64,000 nt of DNA from Adhaeribacter swui (GTDB lineage Bacteria; Bacteroidota; Bacteroidia; Cytophagales; Hymenobacteraceae), in contig NZ_CP055156.1 of the NCBI RefSeq assembly GCF_014217805.1, positions 868,001-932,000 on the forward strand. Direction: 5' to 3'. The notes below the pieces were generated by a model that saw nothing but the letters and a program-made list of their open reading frames with translations, searched no databases and had not been told where the DNA came from. Shown here piece by piece: positions 47,466 to 64,000 of the stretch (positions within the stretch are counted from its first letter, which is position 1; each line of letters opens with the position of its first letter). A program made the translations under genes and the position numbers.

Positions 47466-47507
47466 AAAAAGTGGTTCCACAATGCTTAGATCGTGGAACC
47501 ACTTTTT
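47466..47507. terminator. Terminator, 15-bp perfect stem
   Basis: AAAAAGTGGTTCCAC (47466-47480) and GTGGAACCACTTTTT (47493-47507), 12-base loop, 18 bp beyond the stop of the leftward gene at 47525-47803. Confidence 0.88.
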
Positions 47508-47524
47508 GTTTTATACCAATAAAA

Positions 47525-47803
47525 TTAGGCGTTTACCGGCTGGGGCTTAAAAATAACGAAATGTTTGTTTTCGTGGTAAGCCCGGAAAGTAATGCCGTTT
47601 TGGTTGCAAAAATAGCTTAGTTTATCTTCGGTTGTGCGTTCCAGTGGTCGGTGACCAATTAACCCGAAGGCTAACAAACGGCTTACATCGGTAGCAGGGT
47701 CGGCCGGAAATAAATTTTGTAATTGATCCCCGCTCACGTAAACCGGCGATTGCAGGGCAGATTTTGCTAATTCTTTAGTTTGTTGGAAGGTATTTGCAAA
47801 CAT
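47525..47803 (-). CDS. Small protein of unknown function
   Basis: 92 residues, soluble. No recognised domain; the sequence (KSALQSPVYVSGDQLQNLFPADPATDVSRLLAFGLIGHRP) has an amphipathic helical look. Its own strong terminator and a 411-bp upstream region suggest an independently expressed gene. Confidence 0.6.
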   Translation of the reverse strand: MFANTFQQTKELAKSALQSPVYVSGDQLQNLFPADPATDVSRLLAFGLIGHRPLERTTEDKLSYFCNQNGITFRAYHENKHFVIFKPQPVNA

Positions 47804-48214
47804 GATACAGACCTTTATAAATTCTAATACTTAGATTAACTTAATTGTTTAGTACAATTTTAAACAAAGTTTATAAAAATGCGAAACACTTGTTTGCAAA
47901 TGGATAGTTCCTGTAATTTTAGATAATAATATACAATCCCAATCTTAATTTAACAATAATTTTTACCATGTTTTAACTTACATATTCTCAATTATATACA
48001 AATTTTAATATTTAAATAATGTATCAATTGCTACCGGCCAGACATATCCTAAAACACAGATTTATATTACAAATAAGCTGTTAGTTAACTTAAAACAAAT
48101 CAATTTATTAAATACCTAAACAATAAAAACAAGAGGAAAAATTATTTAGAGAACAGGCAGGTCAATACGGCTTTCTTGATTTAAAAAGCTTTGTACAACA
48201 CGGCAAAATTAATC
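47804..48214. other. AT-rich gene-free region
   Basis: 411 bp, very AT-rich, no frame or hairpin worth naming. Should hold the promoter of the 92-residue gene; the nearest -7-like site is imperfect. Confidence 0.5.
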
Positions 48215-48466
48215 TTATTTTAGGGTAGATTCTATTACCTGGGCAATGGCTTGAAGCAGGCCAATATCAATTTTTAAATTTTTGTTTAACTGCGTTTCAT
48301 TTAAAACAGCGCGGTAGTTCTGGTCTTCGTCGGGTTCAAAAGAAACCAGGTGGCCATCTATTTCTACTTCTAACTTATGGGTATAGCCCGAAGTTAACAG
48401 CCGGGTAGTAAAGTCGCGTTCTTCGCCTTTGTAAGTAACGGGTATGGCAAAATATTCGTTGCTCAT
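48215..48466 (-). CDS. Small protein of unknown function
   Basis: 83 residues, soluble, beta-rich first half (FAIPVTYKGEERDFTTRLLTSGYTHKLEVEIDGHLVSFEPDEDQNYRAVL) and a C-terminal helix (IDIGLLQAIAQVIESTL). Not recognised by name; resembles small conserved proteins of Cytophagales. 30 bp after the gene at 48497-48712, so probably one transcript. Confidence 0.65.
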   Translation of the reverse strand: MSNEYFAIPVTYKGEERDFTTRLLTSGYTHKLEVEIDGHLVSFEPDEDQNYRAVLNETQLNKNLKIDIGLLQAIAQVIESTLK

Positions 48467-48496
48467 GGGTTTGGTTATGGATATAACGGCGGGAAT

Positions 48497-48712
48497 TTAC
48501 TCAATTTCCCGGGCATGTTCGTAATCCTGAAAATCGTCGAGGTTACGGTAATTAGGCAAGTTCCGGTCTTTTGGCACAATCTCCCACCCATCGGCCAGCG
48601 CTGGCGCTGATTGCACGCTGTTATTATTAAGCCAATCGGCTTGTTGCTCCTTGGGTACGTTTTGCAGCACTAAGGCTAAAAATTCGTCTTGCGTTAATTT
48701 ACTCTCGGCCAT
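48497..48712 (-). CDS. Small acidic protein of unknown function
   Basis: 71 residues, rich in Asp/Glu/Asn, without membrane segment. No domain recognised. Precedes the 83-residue gene in the same direction. Confidence 0.55.
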   Translation of the reverse strand: MAESKLTQDEFLALVLQNVPKEQQADWLNNNSVQSAPALADGWEIVPKDRNLPNYRNLDDFQDYEHAREIE

Positions 48713-48814
48713 GTTACCTTTTTTTAGCTGTATTTACGGAGAAACATGGGTTTAGATTAACTTTTCTGATAAACAACTTACTTACAGACATTTATCAGCA
48801 CATGCCAAAAAGTA

Positions 48815-48889
48815 AAAATTTAAAAAATAGCTTCAGAAACCTGTCCGGCCATATACTACTTTGTATTCTGAAGCTATTTTTTAAATTTT
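48815..48889. terminator. 24-bp perfect-stem terminator
   Basis: 48815-48838 and 48866-48889 are exact inverses (core AATAGCTTCAGAA) with a 27-base loop. Located 40 bp past the stop of the dehydratase gene at 48930, closing the long leftward SusCD/dehydratase cluster. Confidence 0.85.
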
Positions 48890-48929
48890 ACGCCATCTGC
48901 CAATTTCTTCAGCAGAAAATAATTACAGA

Positions 48930-50090
48930 TTACGATTTGCGAGCACCTTTTACCACCGATTCCATTAAGCCGCGCATGTAGCCGATAGCAAACAAATTGC
49001 CCAAGGTCATATATCCCGGATGGGTATTTTGTTCGCCGGCCATGGTGGGTACGTGGTCCGGACGAATAGCGCCTTTAAAGCCAATTTCGTAGTACGCCTT
49101 CATGGATTCGTACATATCAATCTGGCCTTCGTCGTGGAAAGTTTCGGTGAATTTAGTGCTGGGCAGTTTACCGCTTAAGTCTTGCACGTTCCGGAAATGC
49201 ACAAAATGAATTTTACCCGCTTTGCCCCAGCGCCGCACCAACGATGGAGTATCGGTGCCCATTAAGGCAAAATTACCCTGACATAGGGTAACACCGTTAA
49301 AATCGCTCGGCATAATTTTTAACATGCGATCAAAGCTTTCTACGGTGTTCATAATCCTGGAAATGCCCTGGATGCTGTGCACCTGCGGGTCATCGGGGTG
49401 CAAAGCCAGCTTCATTTCTATTTTTTCGGCTTCGGGAACTACGGCTTTCAGGAAATATTCCAGGTTCTTCCACATGGTTTCTTTAGTAACTTCGCCGTAT
49501 TTGGTCAAAGGTTTATTCTTAATATCGTCGTAATCAAAAGCGGTAACCAAAGCGCCACCCCGCGCCGGCCGGTCCATTTGTGTACGGGCCCAGCTAATTA
49601 CCGGCATCCAGTTGTAGCAAATAACGTTTACGCCCGCTTTTTTTAAATTTTTCATAAACGTGATGAAGTTGGCAATTTCTTCGTCGCGGCCAGCCAGCCC
49701 CAATTTGGTTTTTTCGCCGAGCGAAGGCGGCCCTTCTACTACGGTATAATTTAAACCTACTTTTTTCCAGGCTTCTTTTACGGCGGCAATGGCCTTATAC
49801 TCGTAGGGTTTTACGTCGGTTAAGCCAGTAATGCGGCTATCGATGCCGGCTACGGCGCCCAAGGCATCCATTTGCTTCGCCAATTCTATTAGTTGCCGAT
49901 TAGCCTCAATGCCCGAAAAATAAGCGGTACTCATTTCCATGCCGGCATCTTTGGCCATGGAGTTTAAAACTACATTCGCTTTTGCTTTTTCTAAGCCCGC
50001 ATTAGCTACCGCCGTACCCAAGCCACCCATTGAAAAGGCGGCAGCCAGGGAAGCACTTTTTTTAATAAAATCCCTACGATTGTCTTTCAT
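48930..50090 (-). CDS. Exported mannonate dehydratase-like TIM-barrel protein (1)
   Basis: 386 residues. The N-terminus MKDNRRDFIKKSASLAAAFSMGG has a twin-arginine-like signal (NRRDFIKK, then a hydrophobic stretch). The mature part matches UxuA: EGPPSLGEKTKLG, NWMPVISWART, RGGALVTAFD, LCQGNF, VHFRNVQ, FHDEGQIDMYE and RPDHVP, which contain the Cys, His, Asp and His metal ligands known in the family. UxuA dehydrates D-mannonate to 2-keto-3-deoxygluconate and is normally cytoplasmic; export is unusual. Near-paralogue of 51536-52672. Confidence 0.85.
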   Translation of the reverse strand: MKDNRRDFIKKSASLAAAFSMGGLGTAVANAGLEKAKANVVLNSMAKDAGMEMSTAYFSGIEANRQLIELAKQMDALGAVAGIDSRITGLTDVKPYEYKAIAAVKEAWKKVGLNYTVVEGPPSLGEKTKLGLAGRDEEIANFITFMKNLKKAGVNVICYNWMPVISWARTQMDRPARGGALVTAFDYDDIKNKPLTKYGEVTKETMWKNLEYFLKAVVPEAEKIEMKLALHPDDPQVHSIQGISRIMNTVESFDRMLKIMPSDFNGVTLCQGNFALMGTDTPSLVRRWGKAGKIHFVHFRNVQDLSGKLPSTKFTETFHDEGQIDMYESMKAYYEIGFKGAIRPDHVPTMAGEQNTHPGYMTLGNLFAIGYMRGLMESVVKGARKS

Positions 50091-50242
50091 AACTCAATAA
50101 TTTAAAAATTTTAAAAATAAATTTCAGGCGTTCGTAAACCTGGCTGCTGGTTAAATCAGGGGTAACTTTTGCATTATTTACTTGTTTAATCCCGCATTTT
50201 ACTAAAAACAAGGCAATTTATCAACCTAAATCCAGATATAAC

Positions 50243-51427
50243 TCAGGCATTTACCCCCGTTTCTTTTAGCGAAACCACGGCTTGCATCATGGCTTTGGTA
50301 TAGGCTACATTATAGGCTTCGGCAGCGTACCCGCCGCCGCCCGGGTACATACTTTTAATACCGCCAGGGTGTTCCCGGTCGTAATCCAACGCGCGGGGAT
50401 GTTCGGGATAAATACCAAATTTATAACCGAGGTTAAATACTTCCTGCATTACCGCGAACATATTTACCTGGCCTTCGTCGATAAAAACTTCGGAATATTT
50501 TACGTAGGGCTTCTCTACCGTAACATTGCGGTAGTGCATGTGGTTAATCCGGTCCCGGGAACCTAAATAGCGCAGCACTTCTAGCGGGTCTTCGCCCATT
50601 TCGCGGGTAACGCCGCAATCGAAGGTCATACCGTTAGCAGGACTATCTACAATTTCCAAAAGTCGTTGCCAGTCTTTAAAGGTGGCCATAATCTGGTCGT
50701 GCCCGTGACTAACCGGAATAGGCGGATCGTTGGGGTGCAAAGCCATGCGCACGCCAGCTTTTTCGGCCACCGGAATAATGGCTTTCAGAAAATAAGTTAA
50801 ATTATTCCAGAGCATTTCGGCGGTTTGCGGCGTACCTAATTTGGGATCGGTGGGTAAGTTTTTACCTTTTTCGTAATCAAAACTGGTATTGCTGGCCCCG
50901 CCCCGGGCTTTTTCTTCGTAGTAGCCTTCCAGGAGCCGGTGGGCGTAAAAGTTATATTCTACCACCGGTAAACCCGCCTGACCCGCGGCTACTAACGAAT
51001 CCTGGATTTTTTTAATTTCTTCGTCGCGGCCTTCCCGCCCGTAAATGGCATTGGGGTGTTCCCCAATCATCATGTTTATTACGGTTAAACCTTCGTCTTT
51101 AAAACGATCCATTATTTCCCGGAGGCTTTCCACGGTCCAGGGAATAGGTGGCCCGCCCATCAGCACGTAATCCACGCCTAATTGTTTAATCTGCCGCATT
51201 TGCGCTACCGTAGCCTTACTGGAAACCCCTAACGTTAACCGGGGCTGGTTCTCCCCTATTTTAATGGGCCATTCGGCACCTTTGGTATTATTGGCGCTGC
51301 CGGTAAGAACTGCCCTACCATTTTCAGCAGGTTCTTTGCCGGAAGAGCTGCAGCCGCTTAGGCCTACCACTGAAAGCGCAGCTAAAGCGGTACTTTTTTT
51401 TAAAAAATCGCGACGGTTATCTTTCAT
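50243..51427 (-). CDS. Exported mannonate dehydratase-like TIM-barrel protein (2), divergent
   Basis: 394 residues. Starts MKDNRRDFLKKSTALAALSVVGLSGCSSSG: twin-arginine-like motif plus a lipobox-like Cys. The barrel is more distant from the other two: FDCGVT and HYRNV are kept, but GQIDM becomes GQVNM and RPDHVP becomes YPEHPR, so a metal-binding or catalytic carboxylate may differ. It may act on another sugar acid or as an isomerase of the Xyl/AP endonuclease 2-like superfamily. Confidence 0.8.
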   Translation of the reverse strand: MKDNRRDFLKKSTALAALSVVGLSGCSSSGKEPAENGRAVLTGSANNTKGAEWPIKIGENQPRLTLGVSSKATVAQMRQIKQLGVDYVLMGGPPIPWTVESLREIMDRFKDEGLTVINMMIGEHPNAIYGREGRDEEIKKIQDSLVAAGQAGLPVVEYNFYAHRLLEGYYEEKARGGASNTSFDYEKGKNLPTDPKLGTPQTAEMLWNNLTYFLKAIIPVAEKAGVRMALHPNDPPIPVSHGHDQIMATFKDWQRLLEIVDSPANGMTFDCGVTREMGEDPLEVLRYLGSRDRINHMHYRNVTVEKPYVKYSEVFIDEGQVNMFAVMQEVFNLGYKFGIYPEHPRALDYDREHPGGIKSMYPGGGGYAAEAYNVAYTKAMMQAVVSLKETGVNA

Positions 51428-51465
51428 GTTTAATCATTTTAATAGGTGAGAAAATGAACGAAAGA

Positions 51466-51505
51466 AGCATACCGGGTACTTTTGGGTAAAAGCACCCGGT
51501 ATGCT
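51466..51505. terminator. Hairpin between dehydratase genes 2 and 3
   Basis: AGCATACCGGGT (51466-51477) pairs with ACCCGGTATGCT (51494-51505); CTTTT/AAAAG adds an inner stem. No clean T-run follows on the minus strand, so it may be a partial terminator or mRNA stabiliser that sets different dosage of the genes. Confidence 0.6.
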
Positions 51506-51535
51506 GGGGATTAAATCAGATGAACCTTAAAAAAA

Positions 51536-52672
51536 TCAAGCTTTGGCGTTTGCTTTGGCAACGGATTCGGCTAAACCGCGCATGTAACCAATGGCGTATA
51601 AAGTACCTAAAGTCATGTAACCGGGGCGGGTATTTTCTTCGCCGTGCATGGTAGGCACGTGGTCCGGGCGAATGGTTCCTTTAAAACCAATGTCGTAGTA
51701 GGCTTGCATGGCGGCGTGCATATCAATCTGGCCCTCGTCGTGAAAAGTTTCGGTAAATTTAGTACTGGGCAATACGCCGCTTAAATCCTGCACATTCCGG
51801 AAGTGCGCAAAATTAATTTTACCGGCTTTGCCCCATCTTCTAATCAGGGCTGGAATATCGGCTCCCATTAAGGAAAAATTACCCTGGCACATGGTTAAAC
51901 CGCTGTATTTGCTGGGCATGATTTTGAGCATGCGGTCGAAATTTTCTACGGTATTCATAATCCGGGAAATACCCTGAATGCTGTGTACCTGCGGGTCGTC
52001 GGGGTGCAGCGACAAGTTCATGCCTATTTTCTCGGCTTCGGGCACCACGGCTTTCAGAAAATACTCTAAATTCTTCCACATGGCTTCTTTCGAAACCTGG
52101 CCATACTGCGTGACCGGTCTGTTTTTAATATCATCGTTATCGAAAGAAGTGACCAAAGCTCCTCCCCGGCCCGGCCGGTCCATGGTGGTACGCGCCCAGC
52201 TAATTACCGGCATCCAGTTATAGCAGATCACATCCACGCCGCCGTATTGCTTCAGGTTTTTCATAAAGGTGATGAAGTTGGAAATTTCTTCATCCCGGCC
52301 CGATAATGCTAATTTGGTTTGTTCGCCCAAGGAAGGCGGTCCTTCTACCACGGTCCATTTTATGCCTTCTTTATCCCAAGCGGCTTTGGTGGCTTTAATG
52401 GCTTCCGGGTCCCAGGGTTTTAGGTTAGGATTTCGAATAATCCCCGAAACCGCATGCATCACATCTATTTGCTTGGCAAATGGTACCCGCGGCGAATCGG
52501 GGCTCATGGCCAAAGCGAATTTCATTCCGGCATCCCGGGCAAAGGCTTTTAATTTATTTGGTTTTTCTTTGGTCACCAGCGGGTTAACCATAGTCGAGGC
52601 TGTACTGCCTATAGACAAGGCGGCCGCCAGGTAAGCACTTTTCTTGATAAAATTTCTGCGGTTATCTTTCAT
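51536..52672 (-). CDS. Exported mannonate dehydratase-like TIM-barrel protein (3)
   Basis: 378 residues, with MKDNRRNFIKKSAYLAAALSIG as twin-arginine-like signal. All UxuA-like motifs of copy 1 are present (EGPPSLGEQTKLA, NWMPVISWART, LTMCQGNF, AHFRNVQ, FHDEGQIDMHA, RPDHVP). Copies 1 and 3 are close paralogues by eye, separated by the divergent copy 2. Located 89 bp downstream of the SusD gene. Confidence 0.85.
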   Translation of the reverse strand: MKDNRRNFIKKSAYLAAALSIGSTASTMVNPLVTKEKPNKLKAFARDAGMKFALAMSPDSPRVPFAKQIDVMHAVSGIIRNPNLKPWDPEAIKATKAAWDKEGIKWTVVEGPPSLGEQTKLALSGRDEEISNFITFMKNLKQYGGVDVICYNWMPVISWARTTMDRPGRGGALVTSFDNDDIKNRPVTQYGQVSKEAMWKNLEYFLKAVVPEAEKIGMNLSLHPDDPQVHSIQGISRIMNTVENFDRMLKIMPSKYSGLTMCQGNFSLMGADIPALIRRWGKAGKINFAHFRNVQDLSGVLPSTKFTETFHDEGQIDMHAAMQAYYDIGFKGTIRPDHVPTMHGEENTRPGYMTLGTLYAIGYMRGLAESVAKANAKA

Positions 52673-52761
52673 AATGCTACTTTTTTAAATTTTAGCGAAA
52701 CAGAAAATTTTTAAAAATTTGATTAAAACGCTTTCTTTAATCCGGAAAGCTACTTGCCTGG

Positions 52762-54366
52762 TTATTCCTTGTCCCACCAAACGCGGGTAGTATATAAATC
52801 GGGGCCTTGGTTCTGGATGGCATTTTCTACACTGGCTGCATTCAAAGATTTTTCTTCAAACGAATACATTAAGCGCCGTAACGGAGTACCGCCGGTGGCA
52901 TTAAGCGGGTAATTAATCGGTTGCAAAGCCGGAATTCCGGTGCGGCGCCAGTTCGACCAGGCTTCAAAAAAGTCGAGGTACATGTAGTGCGCCAGGTAAA
53001 ACTGCGTGTGAATTTGCTCCATCATTTCGGGCATGCCGCTGGTTAACGGGTGCGCTGCAATGTAGGTATCAATTTCGGCGGGAGTAATGGCTACATTGGC
53101 CACGCTGCTATTCGGGTATAAAGTAGACGACTCCATATTGGCACGGATAGCTTTATGGTAATGGTCTTGGGCGTTGCCGGTTTCCCAACCGCGTAGGGCC
53201 GCCTCAGCTAATAAAAATTCTACCTCGGAATAGCTCAGGATAATGGAAGGCGCCGAAAAGTTAGCCACCGTAGCCGTATTGGGTTCGGAGTATTCGCGCA
53301 GCAATTCGTTTTTCCAGTTCGGAATAACCGTACTAATCGTGTTTGGATCGTAACCATTGGGCAACGCTTTTTGCAGTTCGGCAGCGGTAGTTTGCGTTAT
53401 CACCTGGCCTTGTTTGGCGTCGATGTTGCCTTCCCACAAAGTCATGTAAAACGGTATGCGCGGGTCTTGATTGGCCTGCAGTAAATCCAGGAAAGTTTTA
53501 CCCATTTTTACTAAACCCAGGCCTTGGTTGCCTTCGGGTAAGCTTTCTCTTTTTAATTCGCGGGCATCCCAGTTCCAGGTGTTTTCATTAGCCGAAATAT
53601 GCACCAGTTTGGCAATATCGGCATTGCTTTGCATCACGCCACCGGCTATGGCTTTCTGCGCCCAGGTTTGCGCCAGAGCCGGGTCTACTTTGGTTAAGCG
53701 CATGGCTAAACGCAGCATTAAAGAATAACCAAAGGCTTTCCATTTGGGCACATTACCGGAGTAAATAACATCGGCCGCGCCAAAAGTAGGTTTAGCAGCA
53801 TCCATCTGGTTTAAAGCCGCTTCCAGATCCTGCAGCATCCACGGGTAAATCTCCGATTGCTTATCGTAGGCGGGTTTATAAATACCTTCGGGCGCGCCGG
53901 CGGCTTGTTTATAAGGTACATCGCCGTACGCATCGGTAACCCGGTGCAAGGCATATACTTTCCAGATTTTAGCAATGGCATTTTGATTTACCAATTCCGG
54001 ATTGCCTTCTGTTTCCCGGATTACAATCATCAGTTCCCGCAAATGCGAAGTATAAACCGTTTCGAAGAAATTACCGGTTTGGGCGTTTACAATGCCTTTT
54101 TCGCCATACCAAAAATTTTGCAGCGTAGCGTGGTACTGCATAATACCCGATGCATATTTAATATTCGTCCGGTTACGGTCGGCGGTACCGGTGCCCACGG
54201 TGCGGATAATACTATTGGTAAACAAAGGTTCAATGGCCGGCTCGGTAAAGGAGTTCGGGTTAATGTTCATTTCTTCGAAACCTTTATCGCAGGAGGTTAA
54301 GAAGAAAACTGCTAAAAAGCCGGTTTTAAAAGTAAAAGCAGCTATTTTACGTTTTATATTATTCAT
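52762..54366 (-). CDS. SusD/RagB-like outer-membrane lipoprotein
   Basis: 534 residues. Lipobox VFFLTSCDKG (Cys about 26). KVYALHRVTDAYGDVPYKQA and LSYSEVEFLLAEAALRGW are SusD-like (SusD-like_2 type) motifs. It pairs with the SusC encoded 45 bp upstream to bind and deliver a ligand. The ligand is unknown, but the following sugar-acid dehydratase-like genes suggest uronate or aldonate containing material (inference). Confidence 0.93.
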   Translation of the reverse strand: MNNIKRKIAAFTFKTGFLAVFFLTSCDKGFEEMNINPNSFTEPAIEPLFTNSIIRTVGTGTADRNRTNIKYASGIMQYHATLQNFWYGEKGIVNAQTGNFFETVYTSHLRELMIVIRETEGNPELVNQNAIAKIWKVYALHRVTDAYGDVPYKQAAGAPEGIYKPAYDKQSEIYPWMLQDLEAALNQMDAAKPTFGAADVIYSGNVPKWKAFGYSLMLRLAMRLTKVDPALAQTWAQKAIAGGVMQSNADIAKLVHISANENTWNWDARELKRESLPEGNQGLGLVKMGKTFLDLLQANQDPRIPFYMTLWEGNIDAKQGQVITQTTAAELQKALPNGYDPNTISTVIPNWKNELLREYSEPNTATVANFSAPSIILSYSEVEFLLAEAALRGWETGNAQDHYHKAIRANMESSTLYPNSSVANVAITPAEIDTYIAAHPLTSGMPEMMEQIHTQFYLAHYMYLDFFEAWSNWRRTGIPALQPINYPLNATGGTPLRRLMYSFEEKSLNAASVENAIQNQGPDLYTTRVWWDKE

Positions 54367-54411
54367 ATTTTTCTAAATCATTTTGGATAAAGTAATTACC
54401 TAAATCTGTTT

Positions 54412-57400
54412 TTATAAGCGCACGCTTAAGTTAATGCCGTAGGTGCGGGTAGATGGCAAACCAAAGTTTTCGAGGCCTTGCGCATTACCGCTGCTATAAT
54501 TCGATTCCGGGTCGATGTTTTTGGTGGCGCGGTATAGAATAAGCAGGTTCCGGCCCACAAACGAAATATTCGCCGACTGGAAAGGCGTTTTCGCGAGCAA
54601 CGCCGACGGCAAGGTGTAGCCAATGTTAATGGAACGCAGCTTAATAAAATCGGCTTTCTCCACAAACTCGCTGGTAATGGTGTTCCAAAGGCCTTTGTAA
54701 TACGTTTCGGCGGGTACGGTTTTAGTAAAGGCTTCGCCTTTTTCGTTCACGCCATTTACTACTACCCCGGTTTCGCGCACGTTATTTTCTACGGTGCGTT
54801 TATCTAAACCAAACTGGGTACCGTAAGCGCTGGTAGCTGAGTAAATACTGCCGCCCCAGCGGCTATCCAGTAAAATACCAGCCGTGAAATTTTTAAAAGT
54901 AAAGTCGTTATTTAAACCTACGGCCAAGGGTGGCACGCCTTTACCTAAAGGTACTACCGGACTGGCAATAGGTAAACCGTTAGAGCTGTTGTAAATAATT
55001 CGGCCGCTAGCATCGCGGGAGTACGTGCTGCCGGCAATCTGACCGAAAGGCTCGCCCTGGTAGTGGGTAATCCAGCCGTTTTCGGTGCGGGTAGTAGCGC
55101 CGGGTAAACGCAAACTGGTTAAGCCTAACTCGGGGGCAATGCTGATAACCTCATTTTTATTGTAAGCCGTATTTAAAGCCAGGTTCCACGACAATCCGCT
55201 TTCGGAAGAAACCGGCGTACCCGAAATCATTAATTCCACGCCCCGGTTTTTCATTTTACCCACGTTTAAAGCAACTGCGGTGTAGCCACTGGATTGCGGC
55301 AAAGTAGCGTTTACAATGTCGTTGGTAGTGGTGCGGTCGTAGAGGGTTACATCCACGCCCAAGCGGTTATTAAAAATTTTAGTTTCGATACCAAATTCGG
55401 TGGTGGTAGAAGTATAAGGCGTGAGCAGCGTAGGTAAGGTAGCGCTGGTAACGTTCATTAAAGTTTGGCCTAAATGCTGCTGCGACTGCGCCGAAAACGT
55501 TTGGGTAATGGCATAAGCATTCGGTGCACCGCCCCCTACCTGGGCCCAGGAACTTCTTATTTTGGCGTAATCTAACCAGGCGGGTTTAGAAGCCCAGGCA
55601 TCGGAAGCCACAAAGCTTAACCCTACCGATGGGTAAAACAAGCTGTTTTTCTTAGGGTCTAAGGTCGAGAACCAATCGTTGCGGCCGGTCAAGGTTAAAT
55701 ACAGATAATTATTAAAATCAATATCCGCGGAAGCAAACAACGAATTAATGCCTACCTGGCTGTAGTTGATGCCAAAGTTCTGGCTGCGGCCATTAGCAAT
55801 AAAATACTCAAAAGGCCGGTTAAACTGACCGCTGGACAAATTAATGCCATCGAAGGTATTGCGCATCTGGTTACCGCCAGCAAACACGTTAATCGAGAAA
55901 GCGCCTACTTCTTTGCGATAGCCAATGGTTCCTTCCAGGTTGGTTTCGGATTGCAAACTTTGGTCGGTGCTCATGGAACCGGGTTGGTTAAAAGCTAAAC
56001 CGGTGGGCTGAATGGCAAAACCATCGAAGTTTACCTGGTCAATCCCAAAGCGGGCCCGCACGTAGAGTTCATCGGTAATATTATAAGTAGTATTAAAAGA
56101 ACCAATAAACCGTTTTTTGGTATCGCCATTCCGGACTTTGTTAATGGCAAAATACGGGTTGGTAGCGTACTCGTAATCGCTCCATTTAAATTCGTTGCCG
56201 TTGGGCAAATAACCCGGCGACAAGGTTTCTATCGGAATGTTAGAAGCTAACAACTGGGCACCCGTATTAGGGTTTAATTGAAAATCAGCCAGATAGGTGC
56301 GGTTTTTAACGTCTTCGATGTTGTACTGGGCATTACCTTCAAACACAATTTTTTTAGCCAGAGTCGCGCTGGTACTCAGGTTAAAAGTTTTAATATTCAT
56401 GTCGTTGTTGGGTACAATGGCCTTGTTATCCAGGTTAGAGGCCGAGAACCGGAAGCGGGCAATTTCGTTGCCGCCGGTAAACGCCAGCGTATTCACGAAG
56501 TTGGTACCGGTTTGGTAGAAATTTTTAAAATTATTCTTCTGCGCGGAGTAAGGCCGCGTCTGCCCATCCGGTTGAATCACCGGCGAACCATCTAAACGGG
56601 CACCCCACGACATGCGGCCATTAGAAATAGCCTGCGCCTGGGTGGTAGGCGCGGCTCCCAAAGAACCGGAGCCATATTCGTACTGCCAATCAGTTAAGTT
56701 AATGGCTTGCTGAAAGGTAAAGTTGGTATTGTACTCTACCCCAATGCCTTTTTGCGTTTTCCCGGATTTAGTGGTAATTAAAATAACGCCATTGGCCGCC
56801 CGAGCCCCGTACAAAGCGGCCGCCGTACCGCCTTTTAAAACCGAAATACTTTCAATATCGTCGGGGTTAATGCTGGCCAAACCATCGCCCCGGTCGATGC
56901 CCCGAAGGTGCCCGCGGAGCCTTGGTTGTTGTTGGTAATGGGCATGCCGTTAACCACGTACAAAGGCTGGTTTTCGCCGTTTAAAGACCCGTTCCCCCGG
57001 ATCACAATGCGGCTGGAACCGCCTGGTCCGCCCGAAGTACCGGAGGCCGTTACCCCGGCTACCCGGCCGGCTAAAGCGTTACCCACGTTAATTTCCCGGG
57101 CCTGGGTTAGTTTCTCGCCGCCCACTTCCGATACGGCGTAGGTTAAGGCTTTCTTTTCCCGTTTAATACCCAAGGCGGTTACTACAACTTCGTCCAGGGT
57201 TTGCGTATCGTCGAGTAAAGTTACATTCAGGGTGGCGCTGCCATTAAAAGCTACTTCTTTGGTGGTATAGCCAATAAAGGAAAATACCAAAGTGCCGTTA
57301 TCGGTGGGTGCCGTAATAGAATAAGAACCATCCGCGCTAGAAGCAGTACCGGTAGTAGTACCTTTTACTAAAACCGTTACACCCGGCAAACCTTCGCCGG

Positions 57401-57866
57401 TAGCCGAGGTAATTTTACCGGTAATGGTAGCGGCCAGCACCGGTCTTTTAGTAGATACCAGCATCGAACCCGATTGGTCGGCTAAAGGCACATAGCCACT
57501 GGTTTTTAATTTTTTGAGCACTACTTCGCCGCCTACCGGTTCAAAATCAATGTGCATGGGCGTGAGCAGCTCCGTAAGTACGAGGGCTAGTTTTTTATTA
57601 GTGGCCGCTACCGATACTTTGCGCGACGCATCAATCATTTGGTTACTGTAAATAAAATGAATGCCGCTTTGGTCTTCAATTTTCCGGAGAACCACACTTA
57701 ACTCAGTATTTTCTAATTTTAAGGTAATTGCCCGGTTTAATACTTCTTTGGCGCGGTTGTCTTCGGCCAGCGTAACTGGTGGTTTAAAGAATAGAAAAAG
57801 AGCTAACAAAAAAGCAGTTCGGCAAATAAACCACCCTGGTTTTTGCTTCAAGCGTAATATTTTCAT
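54412..57866 (-). pseudogene. STN-containing SusC/RagA TonB-dependent receptor, frameshifted
   Basis: The upstream part (57866 to about 56905) has a signal peptide, an STN domain (VLNRAITLKLENTELSVVLRKIEDQSGIHFIYSNQ), a carboxypeptidase-like domain (ATITGKITSATGEGLPGVTVLVKG) and the plug start through NNQGSAGTFG. The next frame then resumes as GIDRGDGLASINPDDIESISVLKGG and runs through the barrel to LSVRL. One G seems missing at CCCC (plus strand) 56900-56903. Joined, about 1,150 residues. The STN domain contacts a FecR anti-sigma; FecR and ECF sigma lie directly upstream. Real mutation, phase-variable tract or sequence error are all possible. Confidence 0.88.
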
Positions 57867-58049
57867 AGATACACGTTGTTTTTAAATTTTTACAATAATG
57901 CAGAGATAAGGCAAAATAAGACCAGGCATGCATTAACCGGTGAATGCCGCAACGAGGAAGAAATTAAAAAAAGTGCCGAAGTGAGTATACTGCCGGTTTA
58001 GTACAAGTAATTTTGTGGCATAAGCTAGCTTTTAATTTAAAAAATTGGT

Positions 58050-59087
58050 TTATAAGCAACCTGCTCCTGAAATCAGGTATTTATCGTCATCTACCTGGTA
58101 GGTGGCGCCAATGGATTTACAAATCATATCGAGCTTTACCGGTAAGGGCTGATTATAAAAATAAGCCGTTAAATTGCATTGTTTCAGCCGGACATTTGCT
58201 AAGGTAATGGTTACCCGGTGCTGGTCTTCTAAAGCCTGAATCACTTCGGTTAAAGGATTATCCGGGAACACTAGTTTTTCCAGAGGCAACTGCTTTTCCC
58301 AGTACAGCTTGCTTATTTTTTGTTTAATGGCCGTATCCCGCGTTGCATCAAAATGCGCTTTCTCGTTTAATTGCAATTGCACCGTTTTTTTGGCGGTATG
58401 CACAAACGGCAAATAATCCGGCAAGCTTTTTTCGGTGGAAGTAACGGCTACTTTGCCCGTGCGTACCAGCACTTCGGCCACTTGCTCGGTGGTAAAATCA
58501 ACGCCAAAGCTGGTGCCTAACACTTTTACTTCTACGGCACTCCCGTATACCCGGAACGGATGTTGTTTATCGCGGGCTACCGAGAAAAAAGCTTTGCCGT
58601 GTAAAAACACATCGCGGCTGGCCCCGGTAAACTGCACCGGATATTTAATTTGGGAACCTGGCTCTAACCACACCAGCGAGCCATCGCTAAGCGCCACGCG
58701 TTGCGCTTTTTTTAAATCATTTTGTTTTTGTAATAAGGCTACCTGGTTTTCGGGTACCCGGAAGCGTGGGTATAAAGCAAAGCCAAGCAGCAATAAAAAA
58801 GTAGCTGCTATGCCGTACCAGTAATTAGGACTCCAGCTAATCGTACGGCCTGGTTCTTCTGCCGCATCGGGTTCTTCTTCGGCGGCAGCTTGTTGTATTT
58901 TAGCGTTTAAAATTTCCCAGTTTTTACTTTTGCGGCTTTGTAGGTTCTCGTCTGGTTCCGGCCCCGTTGCTTGGTGGTTTAAATTCTCGTACCATTCGGC
59001 CACAATAGCTTCTTCTTCCGGGGATAACTCGCCAGCTAAGTATTTTTTTAAAAGCCTTTGCAGCTTTTCTTGTTCGTTTTTGCTCAT
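58050..59087 (-). CDS. FecR family anti-sigma factor
   Basis: 345 residues. Cytoplasmic N-terminal anti-sigma part (KLQRLLKKYLAGELSPEEEAIVAEWYENL), one membrane segment (about 94-114, YWYGIAATFLLLLGFAL), periplasmic FecR domain (RVALSDGSLVWLEPGSQIKYP...GKAFFSVARDKQHPFRVYG...VKVLGTSFGVDF) and a C-terminal DUF4974 region. It transmits ligand occupancy of the STN-SusC to the ECF sigma encoded upstream. Confidence 0.94.
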   Translation of the reverse strand: MSKNEQEKLQRLLKKYLAGELSPEEEAIVAEWYENLNHQATGPEPDENLQSRKSKNWEILNAKIQQAAAEEEPDAAEEPGRTISWSPNYWYGIAATFLLLLGFALYPRFRVPENQVALLQKQNDLKKAQRVALSDGSLVWLEPGSQIKYPVQFTGASRDVFLHGKAFFSVARDKQHPFRVYGSAVEVKVLGTSFGVDFTTEQVAEVLVRTGKVAVTSTEKSLPDYLPFVHTAKKTVQLQLNEKAHFDATRDTAIKQKISKLYWEKQLPLEKLVFPDNPLTEVIQALEDQHRVTITLANVRLKQCNLTAYFYNQPLPVKLDMICKSIGATYQVDDDKYLISGAGCL

Positions 59088-59203
59088 GTATCCGCCTAAC
59101 CTGTTTGCCTTAGCTGGTTTCTTACTTATTTAGCCAAGCAAATGCGGGATTACCCTAAATCAAAAATCGATTTTTTTAAAAAATTTGTAAAAAAGAAGCA
59201 GGA

Positions 59204-59782
59204 TTAGCAGTAAACGGCGATACAAAGCAGTGGAACCACAAAATCTTTGAGAAAAATTTTAAGATGCTTTAGGGTTTTGGTGATGTGAAACTCCACGGCT
59301 TTATCAGTGAGTTGGAGTTCGTGGGCAATTTCTTTGTTAGATAGGTTTTGAAAGCGGCTTTTTTCAAAAACTTCGCACGTTTTAGCAGACAATAAAGCCA
59401 GCGCGTTTTTTAAGGCAGTATTTAACTCACTGGTTATAACGCTTTCTTCGGTGTAGTTAGCGGCCGCTATGGAGTGGTCGGCGGCAGACTGGTATTTAGT
59501 ACGGACTAATTGCGACTGGAAATGATTAATAATGGCGTATTTAACAGCCGTAAAAAGGTAGGCTTCCAGGCTGCTGGTAATAACAATGGTTTTCCGTTTC
59601 AGCCAGAGATTTAAAAATATTTCCTGCACCAATTCTTCGGCAACTTCTTTTGTACCGGTTTTGCGGTACGCCACCTGGTACAGTTTTGTCCAGTAGCGAT
59701 CATATATTACCCGAAACGATTCAGCCGATTCGTTTCGTAAACCATCTAAAAGTTCGTTGTCTTTTAAACTGTTCGGGCTCAA
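59204..59782 (-). CDS. ECF RNA polymerase sigma factor (Bacteroidota FecI-like)
   Basis: 192 residues from TTG 59782. Region 2 (FRVIYDRYWTKLYQVAYRKTGTKEVAEELVQEIFLNLWLKR) and region 4 (LLSAKTCEVFEKSRFQNLSNKEIAHELQLTDKAVEFHITKTLKHLK) are complete. First gene of the sigma-FecR-SusC-SusD-dehydratase series, all leftward. A -7 box TATATTTG is at 59805-59812 on its strand. It presumably drives the SusC operon when FecR is relieved. Confidence 0.94.
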   Translation of the reverse strand: MSPNSLKDNELLDGLRNESAESFRVIYDRYWTKLYQVAYRKTGTKEVAEELVQEIFLNLWLKRKTIVITSSLEAYLFTAVKYAIINHFQSQLVRTKYQSAADHSIAAANYTEESVITSELNTALKNALALLSAKTCEVFEKSRFQNLSNKEIAHELQLTDKAVEFHITKTLKHLKIFLKDFVVPLLCIAVYC

Positions 59783-59804
59783 TGATCTTGGTTTTGGTAT
59801 TTGT

Positions 59805-59812
59805 CAAATATA
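59805..59812 (-). promoter_or_regulatory. -7 box (TATATTTG) of the sigma factor gene
   Basis: Minus-strand TATATTTG, full TAnnTTTG match, 22 bp before the TTG start codon, which supports that start. Confidence 0.55.
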
Positions 59813-60183
59813 AATTATAATGGAATCAAAAAAAACAGAGGTTATTTTCAATTATTTCAATTTTTAAAAATTAACAACATAATACCTGGTTTAAAATAAA
59901 AATAGAACAACAGTAAGCCATCTGTTAACTAAAACCGATTAAGCAGACTAAAAAAATAGAAATTTTAATTTAGTTAAATACCCCGGTTTTACCGGAATTT
60001 ACTCCTGTACTTTAGCTGATTGGCCATTAAAATTATATTTTTTTAAATTTTAGACTTTCCCCAAAATAAATTAATTGTACTTAGCATGAGTAAACTGGGC
60101 GAAGTACTAAAGTTGTGCTTGGAGTTTGTAAGTTGGTATTTAAAGTTCGTGTAGGCGGTCCAGCAAGTTCTACTTATCCCTTT

Positions 60184-60329
60184 CCTGGTTGTACTTAGAG
60201 TTAGCGCAGCGCTCTAAGTACAACCAGGTGCCGCCAATCTCTGATTGGCGTTTATCCGAACTTTTGAGTTACGCCAATCAGAGATTGGCAGTCCGAAAAT
60301 ACGTAGAGACCGCTAACGCAAACTCTACG
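60184..60329. repeat. Cluster of three perfect hairpins, one nested
   Basis: (1) CCTGGTTGTACTTAGAG 60184-60200 with 60212-60228, 17 bp. (2) GCCAATCTCTGATTGGCGT 60233-60251 with 60271-60289, 19 bp; each arm is itself a small hairpin (GCCAATC-TCT-GATTGGC). (3) CGTAGAG 60302-60308 with 60323-60329. It could act as a double-sided transcription end for the PQQ dehydrogenase gene or be a REP-like mobile element. Confidence 0.75.
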
Positions 60330-60387
60330 CATAACGCCGTTTTACCATTTTTTTCAAACAACTATCTATTTTTCTAACAAACAAAGA

Positions 60388-62589
60388 CTACGGCAAAGCA
60401 AAAGCCACGTAATTACCGCCACCTTTTAAGCCCCGGGCGCCGCCCGCCGCAATTACCACGTATTGTTTACCATCTACCATATAGGTAATGGGGGTAGCAA
60501 AACCTCCGGCGGGTAATTGGTATTCCCATACTACCTGGCCGGTTTTGCGGTCAAAAGCCCGGATTTTCTCGTCGCGGGTGCCGGCAATAAATACCAGGTT
60601 GCCGCCTGTTACTACTGGGCCTCCGTAACTTTCGGTGCCGGTGGTGGGTACGCCTTTTTTGGCCAGTTCCGGGTATTCGCCCAACGGTACGCGCCACAAG
60701 TATTCGCCGGTATTTAAATCAATAGCATTTAAGGTGCCCCAAGGTGGTTTAATAGCCGGGTAGCCGTTTTGGTCGGTAAACTTTTTCCAGACTTTGTTTA
60801 CGTATTGTGGCACGTACGGGAAGCTTTCTTTTTTAGCGGTTTCAGTAGGCCCGGTTTCGCTGTGTTCGCCGGCTACTTTATCGGCGGCAGTTTCCTTGTT
60901 TAGTAAATAACGCACGATGGCTTCGCGGTTTTCTTTGGGGATGTGGGTAAAAGCGGGCATGCGGCCCCGGCCACTTTCCAGAATCGCCAGCACTCCGGCG
61001 GCGTTGTATTTTTTATCTACATCGGTTAAACTCGGGAAATCAGAACCACTGCCCTTGCGGTCGCGGCCGTGGCAAACCGCGCAATTAGCCAGGTAAAAGC
61101 CATTGCCTTTGGTAACCGCAGCCATTTCTTTTTTCCGTTCGTCCTGCGATACCATTTGCAAAATCCAGGGATCGTCGTTGGCGTTCTGGTACAAAATACC
61201 GTCCGGACTGATGGAATTACCGCCCCATTCGGCGCCACCGCTGTAACCAAACAAAATGGTACCCTTCTCGGTAGGTGGCGCAAACTTATGATCGGTGCGC
61301 ATTTCCGCAAAACGTTCTTTTACGTAAGCGTGGGCTTCCGGTGAAATATCAGTAATATCTTCTTCGGTAAATACCTGATGGGCAAACGGAGCCGGTTTTA
61401 ACGGAAACTTCTGGGTAGGGAAAGGGTGTTCGCCGGGCAAAGCGGGCGAAGTAGGCACCGGCCGTTCTTCCACGGGGAACAAAGAAACGCCCGTGTCGCG
61501 GTCGAGTACATATACTAAACCGTCTTTGGTAGCCTGCACCACTACATCTACTTTTTTACCATTGTGTTTTACGGTAGCTAAATTGGGCGGCGACGGATGA
61601 TCGCGGTCCCATAAATCGTGGTGAATGGTTTGATAGTGCCACACGCGTTGGCCGGTTTCGGCATTAAGCGCCATAATGCAGGTGGCAAACAAGTTTTCGC
61701 CTTGGCGGTCGCCGCCGTAAAAGTCCGAAGCCGGGGAGCCGGTACCAAAATAAACGGTGCCCCGTTTTTCGTCTACCACCAACCCACTCCAGTTATTGGT
61801 GGCGCCAATGTATTTATAAGCGGTAGGTGGCCAGGTATCATAGCCGTACTCGCCGGGCTGCGGAATGGTATGAAAAACCCACTTTAATTTACCCGTTACC
61901 ACATCAAAGGCCCGCACGTGCCCCGGGGCCGCATCACCGGACTCGGAAACGCTGGAACCAATAATAAACGTATTTTTATAAACTACGCCCGGCGACGAAG
62001 CCGTAACAGAAAGCTCACTCACATCATGGTCCAGGTTGGTTTGCAAACCTTCGTGCAGGTCTACGTAGCCGTTTGCGCCAAAGCTGGTAATTTGTTGGCC
62101 GGTTACCGCATTAATGGCATATAGCCGCGAACCTACCGAATACAAAATGCGCTTGTCGTCGCCACTCTCCCAGTAAACTACCCCGCGGCTGGTGTTAAAT
62201 TTTTGTTCGTCTTTTTCGGGCTCAAAACGCCACAATTGTTCGCCGGTACCGGCGTTTAATGCAAATAATTTTAACTCCGCCGAAGTACCGTATAATACGC
62301 CATTTACCACAATCGGCTGGCATTGGATGGCTTTCGGCCGCTGGGGTGTAGTGCTGTTTGGATCAGGCTTTTCGGAGGAATCGTACATCCAGGCCACCTG
62401 CAAATTTTTAACATTATCGAGGTTTATCTGGTTTAAGGGCGAGTAGCGGTTGCCGGCTTTATTGCCACCGTACACCGCGTAATCTAAATTTTTAACTTGG
62501 GAGAGGTCCGTGCTTTTCTCGCGGTTCGGATTTAAACAACTACCTAAAACCAACAAGCCTACCGCTAGCGGCTTAAATTTGTACTTCAT
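60388..62589 (-). CDS. PQQ-dependent dehydrogenase with cytochrome c domain
   Basis: 733 residues. Lipobox-like LLVLGSCLN (Cys about 18). Quinoprotein propeller repeats (LFALNAGTGEQLWRFEPE, LYAINAVTGQQI, DLNTGEYLWRVPLGEYPE) of the membrane glucose/quinate dehydrogenase type, with an inserted cytochrome c domain bearing CAVCHG and the distal Met in GRGRMPAF. It would oxidise an aldose or alcohol on the outer face of the inner membrane or in the periplasm and pass electrons via haem. No PQQ synthesis genes are in the window. Next to the sugar-acid locus. Confidence 0.92.
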   Translation of the reverse strand: MKYKFKPLAVGLLVLGSCLNPNREKSTDLSQVKNLDYAVYGGNKAGNRYSPLNQINLDNVKNLQVAWMYDSSEKPDPNSTTPQRPKAIQCQPIVVNGVLYGTSAELKLFALNAGTGEQLWRFEPEKDEQKFNTSRGVVYWESGDDKRILYSVGSRLYAINAVTGQQITSFGANGYVDLHEGLQTNLDHDVSELSVTASSPGVVYKNTFIIGSSVSESGDAAPGHVRAFDVVTGKLKWVFHTIPQPGEYGYDTWPPTAYKYIGATNNWSGLVVDEKRGTVYFGTGSPASDFYGGDRQGENLFATCIMALNAETGQRVWHYQTIHHDLWDRDHPSPPNLATVKHNGKKVDVVVQATKDGLVYVLDRDTGVSLFPVEERPVPTSPALPGEHPFPTQKFPLKPAPFAHQVFTEEDITDISPEAHAYVKERFAEMRTDHKFAPPTEKGTILFGYSGGAEWGGNSISPDGILYQNANDDPWILQMVSQDERKKEMAAVTKGNGFYLANCAVCHGRDRKGSGSDFPSLTDVDKKYNAAGVLAILESGRGRMPAFTHIPKENREAIVRYLLNKETAADKVAGEHSETGPTETAKKESFPYVPQYVNKVWKKFTDQNGYPAIKPPWGTLNAIDLNTGEYLWRVPLGEYPELAKKGVPTTGTESYGGPVVTGGNLVFIAGTRDEKIRAFDRKTGQVVWEYQLPAGGFATPITYMVDGKQYVVIAAGGARGLKGGGNYVAFALP

Positions 62590-62936
62590 GTACTGGGTTA
62601 ATTTGTATCGGAATGGAAAAAATTTAAAAATTAAAAATAAGGGTTAATCTATTCGGGAGAAAACGTCCGCTGAAAAAGTATCAGAAATAGATAAAATAGT
62701 ACCGGAATTGGATGTTAGATATTAGATGTTAGATATCAGATTTTCGGGGGGTTGATAAAAGGGCATCAGTATATGATTCCAACACCCACACACGACGAAA
62801 TAGGTGAAGTTGATGATATTGGTTATTCGATTTCCGGATTTTAAAATTTTTAAAATTTTGTGTACCAGAGCCAGCTAACTGGTCGTACCTTTAAGGTAGT
62901 TGCCTTAAACAAAAACCTACTCTAACTATTTAGCCT
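62590..62936. other. Gene-free region with short tandem repeat
   Basis: 347 bp. GATGTTAGATATTA followed by GATGTTAGATATCA (62711-62738) is a short tandem repeat of the keyword type seen elsewhere. Otherwise AT-rich; promoters of both divergent genes must lie here, but no full TAnnTTTG was found. Confidence 0.55.
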
Positions 62937-64000
62937 ATGCCAGCAGACGAAATTGTAACGAAAAAGAAGTTGGTTTATCCTATTTCCAAGCGGCTCCGAA
63001 AATACCTGCGAACCTACGACCGCGAAGCGAAATTACCCGTGCGCTACGAAGATTTACTGCACAACAGCGAATCGTTTCCGTATTACGACAAGTCCGGGAA
63101 AGACACGCTCTGGGAAACTGTTTTGTACGAGCAAAGCCGCCAGCAGGAACTCAGCGAGGGTCTCACTATGAACTACGCTTTACTTAAAACGGCTGGTGAT
63201 ATTTCGGTAATGGAGCACTTGCGCGTGTCGCGTATTGATTATTGCACCTTTGGCAATACCAACCCGTTCCGGGTACAAATTAAAAATCAGCTAAACGATA
63301 ACTACGACTATTTTTACGTGAAACGGGCCGATGCCTCGCGGGTTTATGGCCTGGAACTGGAGCATATTTTATCACCAAGTCGCATTAACTACCGCGTAGA
63401 TGGCGAAACAATCATTGAAGAGCACATTGCCGGTATTCCCGGCGACGTATTTATAAAAGAACACCTGGACCGGCCCAACACCAACAAAGTTCGCATAGCC
63501 AAGGAGTTTGTAAAGTTTAACGAACGCTGCTTTATCAGGCTGCTCGGCGACATGCGTTCTTATAATTACGTGATTGATGTAACCCCCGATTTTGAAGACG
63601 AACAATACCGCGTGCGCTCCATAGACTTCGACCAGCAATCGTACGAAGGTCGCCGCTCGAAATATTTACCCCAATTTTTTAAAGACAATAACAAAGTGGT
63701 AGAACTGGTATTGCAACTCCTCAATCGCCAAACCGTGCAGCAATACCAAAGCGAAGAACGCACCTTGCTGTACCAACGCTTAAAATTAGCCCGTTACCGC
63801 CTGAAAGATTTAATTGATGCTATGCGTGCCGATACGCTTTCTACGCCTGAAAAAATAGAGCAACTCAAACAAGAACTGGCGCAGTACCACCAATCCGACG
63901 ATTTTTTAAAATGCCAGAACATGGGCGACTTAGTCAGGCTCAACATTAAAACCATTCTTACCCGCGAACCCCGCATTGTGGTGAATAAAACCAAACGGAA
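62937..64000 (+). CDS. Conserved protein of unknown function (3' end outside window)
   Basis: Open from ATG 62937 (MPADEIVTKKKLVYPISKRLRKYLRTYDRE) to the window edge, 354 codons seen. No signal or membrane segment. The middle part (HIAGIPGDVFIKEHL, KFNERCFIRLLGDMRSYNYVIDV, YRVRSIDFDQQSYEGRRSKY) has an order of motifs loosely like kinase-fold proteins (an Asn-containing loop, then a Asp-Phe-Asp), but this is weak. The C-terminal part is helical and charged (LKDLIDAMRADTLSTPEKIEQLKQEL). Confidence 0.8.
   Translation, partial: MPADEIVTKKKLVYPISKRLRKYLRTYDREAKLPVRYEDLLHNSESFPYYDKSGKDTLWETVLYEQSRQQELSEGLTMNYALLKTAGDISVMEHLRVSRIDYCTFGNTNPFRVQIKNQLNDNYDYFYVKRADASRVYGLELEHILSPSRINYRVDGETIIEEHIAGIPGDVFIKEHLDRPNTNKVRIAKEFVKFNERCFIRLLGDMRSYNYVIDVTPDFEDEQYRVRSIDFDQQSYEGRRSKYLPQFFKDNNKVVELVLQLLNRQTVQQYQSEERTLLYQRLKLARYRLKDLIDAMRADTLSTPEKIEQLKQELAQYHQSDDFLKCQNMGDLVRLNIKTILTREPRIVVNKTKR

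Follow-up and report, generated by a model that had tools for sequence, protein, structure and literature searches.

A candidate extracytoplasmic sugar-acid route with exported UxuA-type dehydratases in Adhaeribacter swui

In a stretch of 64,000 nucleotides from the genome of Adhaeribacter swui (contig NZ_CP055156.1, positions 868,001 to 932,000), below referred to as the window, we have analysed a block of genes that combines a pyrroloquinoline quinone (PQQ) dehydrogenase, an extracytoplasmic function (ECF) sigma factor, a FecR-type transducer and a SusC-SusD pair with three relatives of the mannonate dehydratase UxuA, termed UxuA1, UxuA2 and UxuA3. We slightly favour a reading in which this block specifies an extracytoplasmic sugar-acid route consisting of oxidation by the PQQ enzyme, dehydration outside of the cytoplasm and import of the resulting 2-keto-3-deoxy acid. 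As read from sequence, the gene set, the export signals, the conserved active site and the recurrence of parts of the block are firm; we infer the catalytic activity, the substrate, the direction of flow and the coupling of the PQQ gene in the window to its uxuA genes.

In the proposed route, SusC and SusD, controlled by the ECF/FecR pair, would take up a sugar or sugar acid through the outer membrane. The PQQ dehydrogenase, which carries a cytochrome c domain and is predicted to be a lipoprotein of the periplasm, would oxidize an aldose to an aldonate or lactone. UxuA1 and UxuA3, exported by the twin-arginine translocation (Tat) system, would dehydrate the aldonate outside of the cytoplasm to a 2-keto-3-deoxy-aldonate, which would be imported by a permease encoded elsewhere, phosphorylated inside the cell by a 2-keto-3-deoxygluconate/2-keto-3-deoxygalactonate (KDG/KDGal) kinase and split by an aldolase of the 2-keto-3-deoxy-6-phosphogluconate (KDPG) type.

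Predicted export and active-site conservation of UxuA1 and UxuA3

The N-termini of the three UxuA-like proteins (MKDNRRDFIKKS, MKDNRRDFLKKS and MKDNRRNFIKKS) carry the twin-arginine-like starts that the original prediction had assigned to them. For comparison, we have assembled 52 proteins of the UxuA1/3 clade from 50 loci, which were chosen by a score above 350 bits irrespective of the motif and whose start was placed at the codon closest to the RR motif or to the aligned start. Relatives scoring below 350 bits, namely those in L044, L045, L047, L048, L049 (regarded as non-exported), L050 and one of the two in L014, stand outside of the clade counts, and the fragment L046 offered no anchor. 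By reading of the motif, RRxF is located at residues 4-6 onward in all 52 proteins, with the signal consensus [S/N/T]-R-R-x-F-[I/L]-[K/R], compared to none of 10 canonical UxuA proteins and one of 15 'short' UxuA proteins, where it falls within a doubtful 5' extension. Judged from these sequences, the motif in the clade is not a product of chance. The combination of a (S/T/N)RRxF(L/I)K motif with a hydrophobic stretch, and of TatC encoded in the genome, agrees with the export that had been proposed for the UxuA-like proteins.

In a phylogenetic tree of 105 sequences, the 52 proteins are found on one side of a branch supported by values of 96/86, with long branches meeting elsewhere. The assignment of UxuA1 and UxuA3 as relatives of UxuA is borne out by the conservation of the active site, since residues equivalent to E63, K72, W110, R112, H233, C271, H298, R349, D351, H352 and Y368 of E. 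coli UxuA are retained in all 52 proteins; structure alignments covered 38 of them together with three of the short proteins and 21 of the 26 UxuA2-type proteins described below. In UxuA, as known from work on the S. suis enzyme, the metal is bound by a His, a Cys, a second His and an Asp, and a His and a Tyr participate in catalysis. A model of UxuA3 (predicted local distance difference test score, pLDDT, of 86.6) finds its closest Foldseek matches in 3ban, 1tz9 and 4eac, which are solved mannonate dehydratases, with E-values of 1e-26 to 1e-23 versus 1e-11 for the next fold. The profile PF03786 is matched by all three window proteins (273.8 bits for UxuA1, 144.1 for UxuA2 and 270.9 for UxuA3, with a cut-off of 23.7), and the subfamily NF003027 with its cut-off of 191 includes UxuA1 (244.1) and UxuA3 (244.7) but not UxuA2 (122.0). 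UxuA1 and UxuA3 are candidate dehydratases of mannonate or another aldonate.

The distribution of exported UxuA1/3 proteins is patchy. Counting the source genome in both cases, they are found at E < 1e-114 in 14 of 390 genomes of the same order and at E 1e-45 in 3 of 395 genomes sampled from the class. A neighbouring family of the order has exported UxuA in 43 of 222 genomes, and the small order around G390 in none of 22.

Divergence of UxuA2

The view of all three proteins as homologues of mannonate dehydratase holds for UxuA1 and UxuA3, whereas UxuA2 is a distant paralogue with a different metal site; three equal mannonate dehydratases are rejected in light of its divergence in the tree and in metal-site residues. 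In all 26 proteins of the UxuA2 type, C271 is replaced by Asp and D351 by Glu, with H233, H298 and H352 retained. R349 and Y368 are kept in none of the 26, W110 is mostly Leu (20/26) and R112 mostly Glu (22/26). The resulting H/D/H/E set resembles that of sugar epimerases and isomerases, and the nearest solved structure to a model of UxuA2 (pLDDT 85.8) is still 3ban. In view of its sequence, UxuA2 should not carry the name mannonate dehydratase, and it might serve another step as epimerase, isomerase or different dehydratase. A twin-arginine motif is present in 22 of the 26 sequences, including those of the window and of the sister genome G177, and a lipobox-like site in seven.

The UxuA2 type was detected in 24 loci from Bacteroidota, Acidobacteriota and others, and a search of the class sample of 395 genomes returned the source genome only. 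In four loci, those of the window, G177 (L031), Parapedobacter (L008) and a Chitinophagales bacterium (L009), UxuA2 adjoins UxuA1/3 and SusC-SusD, which suggests that it probably works together with them. Near genes of the UxuA2 type, RraA-like aldolase homologues that bear a signal (L008:15034-15966, L013:16660-17589 and L021:7341-8132) make an extracytoplasmic aldolase step conceivable.

Genomic neighbourhood of exported UxuA

In 18 of the 50 loci, a SusC-SusD pair immediately precedes exported UxuA. Fifteen of the 18, the window included, also contain FecR and ECF sigma genes, confirming that the entire ECF-FecR-SusC-SusD-UxuA set recurs in relatives; in the other three (L008, L009 and L075), the contig extends for only 2-5 kb in the upstream direction. 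When compared with 20 control regions, which are hand-chosen places in sample genomes, the surroundings of exported UxuA within 8 kb contain SusD in 19 of 50 loci versus none (p 0.0007), ECF sigma factors in 12 of 50 versus none (p 0.014) and SusC in 20 of 50 versus three (p 0.053).

A PQQ gene is found in the stretches of five loci from three families, namely the window, L031, L033 (G385), L034 (G329) and L008. Its proposed conservation beside the block is seen in the sister genome G177 (L031), which has the same gene order and keeps the uxuA triplet at 82-93% identity, whereas elsewhere it lies near exported UxuA in other arrangements. In L034, PQQ dehydrogenase, DGOK kinase, KDPG-type aldolase and a permease of the major facilitator superfamily (MFS), the latter three identified by Pfam matches, are followed by one gene on the opposite strand and by exported UxuA. 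In L033, the PQQ gene and a ManD-like gene with twin-arginine start converge on UxuA, and in two of the 50 loci (L037 and L038) a Gfo/Idh/MocA-like gene with twin-arginine start is located near UxuA in place of PQQ. The weak UxuA relative in L050, which has an RK start and no RR, is part of a SusCD cluster with a GntP permease, an HpcH/HpaI aldolase, an NAD_binding_2 dehydrogenase and an enolase-superfamily gene, which looks like an aldarate route.

PQQ dehydrogenases and exported dehydratases

Among 17 stretches around relatives of the PQQ protein, 14 hold a PQQ gene that is 54-71% identical to the one in the window, and all 14 contain at least one enolase-superfamily gene with twin-arginine start within 20 kb. 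L123 and L124, with PQQ proteins at 48-50% identity, are devoid of such a gene, and L109 merely continues L108; the neighbourhood at 5.04 Mb in G177, one of 18 non-window PQQ matches at an identity of at least 57%, is outside of this set. Since the genomes of the 17 stretches had been picked for exported UxuA, the test was repeated in all 222 genomes of the neighbouring family, where 95 genomes contain 144 PQQ genes with E < 1e-245, with E limits set after a first PQQ search and the best four PQQ and seven dehydratase candidates per genome scored. A ManD-like dehydratase is encoded within 12.5 kb of 123 of these 144 PQQ genes, always on the same strand (123/123) and at a distance below 500 bp in 51 cases, and 123 of 142 ManD-like matches are conversely found near PQQ. 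For the remaining 21 PQQ genes, 17 have no ManD-like match on the contig and four have one that is 20 kb to 4.7 Mb away. Most ManD-like matches of the survey align from query residue 1-7, RR motif included, and wherever the start was read, in the fetched loci, the dehydratases near PQQ were Tat-tagged. They are often accompanied by a KDGal kinase, a KDPG-type aldolase and an MFS permease.

A related arrangement, seen near many of these PQQ genes, involves exported homologues of the galactonate dehydratase DgoD. The eight that were compared share 44-46% identity with E. coli DgoD, starting at residue 1 of the latter, and carry an N-terminal extension of about 40-70 residues with a twin-arginine start. 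D183, H185, E209, E235, H285 and E310, residues with known roles in DgoD, are retained in all eight. The copies in L109 and L120, which are the two that were scanned, exceed the NCBIfam galactonate dehydratase cut-off (442.0 and 447.7 versus 311 bits), and the MFS protein of L120 is best matched by the D-galactonate transporter TIGR00893, at a score below its cut-off (249.4 versus 395).

With such ManD-like and DgoD partners beside PQQ genes, PQQ oxidation and a dehydratase with predicted export constitute a repeated gene module, which is represented by the UxuA type in this window. The logic of oxidation followed by dehydration outside of the cytoplasm is in this way reinforced by unrelated dehydratases. 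Both exported UxuA and a PQQ gene of this subclade are present in 38 genomes, where 18.4 would be expected (Fisher p 9e-12, uncorrected for kinship and genome size). We give about even chances to the view that ligand-controlled routes of extracytoplasmic oxidation and dehydration form a wider class in the order of the source organism and its relatives. In such routes, at least two unrelated dehydratase families, the UxuA-type TIM barrel and the DgoD- and ManD-like enolase superfamily, would have been recruited by Tat signals to act after a periplasmic PQQ dehydrogenase, and the imported intermediate would be a 2-keto-3-deoxy-aldonate, hence neither sugar nor aldonate.

At about 1.94-1.97 Mb, the source genome itself has genes for a DGOK kinase, a KDPG-type aldolase, an MFS permease and an exported DgoD, and a second PQQ gene, 64% identical to that of the window, lies about 19 kb from the kinase gene. 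Its KDPG-type aldolases are located at 1.965 and 2.273 Mb, with the kinase and MFS genes beside the first. Within this region, the cluster L109:4838-12191 (around 1.96 Mb) joins these kinase, aldolase and permease genes to a LacI-like gene recognized by eye and to two enolase-superfamily genes with twin-arginine start, one of which exceeds the cut-off for galactonate dehydratase. Also encoded beside PQQ dehydrogenases is a protein of some 325 residues with a signal (L110, L112, L114, L115, L118, L119 and L108:10133-11119), the L118 copy of which has no Pfam or NCBIfam match.

Organization of the locus

The features of the locus are listed in Table 1. From upstream to downstream, the block comprises the PQQ dehydrogenase, a gap of 605 bp, the ECF sigma factor, FecR, SusC, SusD, UxuA3, UxuA2 and UxuA1. 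The genes from sigma factor to uxuA1 all read leftward and form the single block that was described for them. The PQQ gene, at a distance of 605 bp from the sigma gene, may belong to a separate transcription unit. The source genome (6.2 Mb, three contigs) additionally encodes one canonical, signal-free UxuA (L001).

Table 1. Features of the sugar-acid locus, numbered by position in the window.
Feature	Position	Strand	Remarks
PQQ dehydrogenase with cytochrome c domain	60388-62589	-	PF01011 matched; lipobox by eye (VLGSC); own transcription unit possible
ECF sigma factor, TIGR02985 type	59204-59782	-	134 bits versus cut-off 126.4; TTG start as listed
FecR-type anti-sigma factor/transducer	58050-59087	-	PF04773 and PF16344 above cut-off
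SusC, N-terminal part (STN-like, CarbopepD_reg_2, start of plug)	56835-57866	-	frame stops at break
SusC, C-terminal part (remaining plug, barrel), different frame	54412-56880	-	TIGR04056, 448.8 bits
SusD-like protein	52762-54366	-	PF12771, PF12741
UxuA3, UxuA-type dehydratase, Tat-type signal, active-site residues retained	51536-52672	-	profiles, tree, alignment, model
Terminator-like hairpin of 18 pairs in uxuA3/uxuA2 gap	51466-51505	-	consensus match only
UxuA2, paralogue with altered metal site, Tat-type signal and lipobox (LSGC)	50243-51427	-	TIGR01409, 20.7 bits versus cut-off 16.7
UxuA1, UxuA-type dehydratase, Tat-type signal, active-site residues retained	48930-50090	-	profiles, tree, alignment

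The proposed regulatory circuit of ECF, FecR and STN-SusC is present with respect to its ECF, FecR, SusC and SusD genes, the former two above their cut-offs and adjoining SusC, whereas the STN match of SusC is just below the Pfam cut-off (26.0 versus 28.4 bits) and its gene is broken. The susC gene (54412-57866) extends over two overlapping frames, with a frameshift near 56850 in assembly GCF_014217805.1. Ligand control of the block, as originally envisaged, is thus not supported. A promoter scan gave matches at chance level, a scan of 46000-63500 against Rfam gave no match and a terminator scan found 26 sites versus 25.1 expected in shuffled sequences, with a stem as long as that of the hairpin at 51466-51505 occurring once more at 47466-47507. 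The hairpin could reduce transcription of uxuA2 and uxuA1.

Next to the block, 46126-46857 encodes a protein resembling intradiol (protocatechuate 3,4-type) dioxygenases with a lipobox-like signal (VVLSAC), which is kept in G177 (L031:3015-3752). A route from quinate to protocatechuate, in which this dioxygenase would act together with the PQQ enzyme and a dehydratase of the TIM-barrel fold, was rejected, since UxuA1 and UxuA3 keep the residues of UxuA and since the dioxygenase gene is 2 kb away with only small open reading frames in between.

Discussion

As a whole, the original interpretation of the locus is partly supported. It has kept its predicted export, the active site of UxuA1 and UxuA3 and a recurrent unit, and is weakened or not supported with regard to three mannonate dehydratases, a constant PQQ partner, mannonate as the particular substrate and ligand control. 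Several observations weigh against the extracytoplasmic route. The uxuA equivalog TIGR00695, with a cut-off of 199.55, is missed by UxuA1 (166.3 bits), UxuA2 (94.8) and UxuA3 (176.2), and the Tat export of these proteins is a prediction from their motif. Thirty-two of the 50 exported-UxuA loci are without SusC-SusD directly upstream, and permease, kinase and aldolase of the pathway are absent within 8 kb of the window UxuA genes. The break in susC, which in G177 is found at two other places, one at a run of seven A, may be an assembly error or a true frameshift or loss. The window PQQ protein scores 463.7 bits against TIGR03074 (glucose/quinate/shikimate), which has a cut-off of 832.65, and, among solved structures, alcohol dehydrogenases are its closest matches in sequence, so that an aldose as substrate is a guess. 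Among the partners at other PQQ loci, a second Tat-tagged paralogue in L109 and L120 falls below the galactonate dehydratase cut-off (208.1 and 207.5 bits) and the ManD-like copy in L110 below that of the ManD equivalog (396.7 versus 550). PqqE was found above cut-off in none of six genomes and likewise in none of 14 control genomes, which thus provide no positive control, and the PQQ cofactor may be scavenged.

A doubtful but still plausible alternative regards SusC-SusD-UxuA as the actual unit, with exported UxuA1 and UxuA3 acting on a sugar acid that is supplied from outside, for example by plant or microbial polymers, and with the PQQ gene as independent neighbour. The rejection of PQQ as constant partner of UxuA fits such an arrangement: the analysed stretches of 45 of the 50 loci, some of which end early, lack a PQQ gene, the same applies to 15 of the 18 loci with SusC-SusD-UxuA, in the neighbouring family a PQQ gene within 20 kb accompanies only 2 of the 43 exported-UxuA genes and, within 8 kb, PQQ is not above control regions (3/50 versus 0/20, p 0.55). 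The gap to the sigma gene points in the same direction. Conversely, G177 retains the PQQ gene next to the block and three further genomes have one in the vicinity of exported UxuA, compared to a rough chance estimate for this subclade of 0.15 in 46 loci. This estimate was computed with rounded values (46 loci in place of 48 and 20 subclade hits in place of 19) and with a density sample that did not include the L008 genome. The excess of genomes that contain both proteins likewise speaks against this alternative.

The exported UxuA-like proteins are unlikely to catalyse a different reaction in the periplasm, such as the elimination or hydration of 3-keto-sugars or the hydration of dienoates, as found in other xylose-isomerase-like TIM barrels. 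Their fold neighbours include a 2-hydroxy-3-keto-glucal hydratase and a 3-keto-glucoside 4-epimerase, the metal site of UxuA2 differs, an AP_endonuc_2 protein is encoded near the UxuA2 gene of L007 and the Gfo/Idh/MocA-like genes of L037 and L038 have twin-arginine starts. In a study on Paenibacillus, a protein annotated as UxuA is proposed to be a dienoate hydratase (PMC12673573). However, UxuA1 and UxuA3 keep all listed UxuA residues, Foldseek places mannonate dehydratases far above other folds and Pfam gives no match to a Gfo/Idh/MocA family for any of the nine proteins that the block encodes. That the UxuA copies are decaying or serve as sugar-acid binding proteins of the FecR/ECF circuit, as the broken susC in the assembly and its sister and the three copies in one block might suggest, is very improbable given their full-length frames, the active-site residues kept in 52 of 52 proteins and the conservation of the triplet in G177.

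Dehydration of the Entner-Doudoroff kind is taught as a cytoplasmic step. If the extracytoplasmic route exists, the oxidized sugar would be committed to the cell's own use before uptake, respiratory electrons would be gained at the PQQ step and competitors unable to import 2-keto-3-deoxy acids would be excluded. Metabolic models would assign the wrong compartment to genes that carry a Tat signal and have been annotated as dehydratases of mannonate or galactonate, and a defined, testable set of enzymes would result.

The individual parts belong to known families. A periplasmic aldonate dehydratase may have been noted in acetic acid bacteria; no paper on it was among those listed in our literature search. 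This search, which was confined to open-licence papers and thus constitutes weak evidence for the novelty of the arrangement, gave no description of an exported sugar-acid dehydratase among the papers listed, and none is contained in the available parts of PMC5788505, PMC12673573, PMC5507952, PMC5698469 and PMC11036162. In the available part of a proteomic study on a polysaccharide utilization locus (PUL) of Maribacter, a mannonate dehydratase is listed and its export is not discussed (PMC11036162). The carrageenan PUL of Zobellia unites oxidation, an enolase-superfamily enzyme, KDGal kinase and aldolase for the conversion of anhydrogalactose, but there, according to the sections available, an NAD(P) enzyme oxidizes the monosaccharide after uptake and an exported dehydratase is not described (PMC5698469).

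Among the systems that resemble the proposed route, the periplasmic oxidation of glucose and gluconate in Pseudomonas and Gluconobacter equally relies on a PQQ enzyme acting on sugar outside of the cell membrane. In these organisms, dehydration comes later, inside the cell and after phosphorylation. The De Ley-Doudoroff pathway of E. coli (DgoD, DgoK, DgoA and DgoT) has homologues of all four proteins at other loci and in the source genome at 1.94-1.97 Mb, so that the kinase, aldolase and permease missing near the window UxuA genes are present elsewhere in the genome. Unlike in E. coli, the dehydratase is Tat-tagged and a PQQ gene is near, and the homologues of DgoK, DgoA and DgoT are about 25-36% identical to their E. 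coli counterparts. Finally, UxuA1 and UxuA3 share the fold and the listed active-site residues with UxuA of E. coli and S. suis (4eac and 3ban), but differ from canonical UxuA by scoring below the TIGR00695 cut-off, by the absence of a canonical insertion of about 40 residues, by their placement in a clade of their own and by their Tat-type signal.

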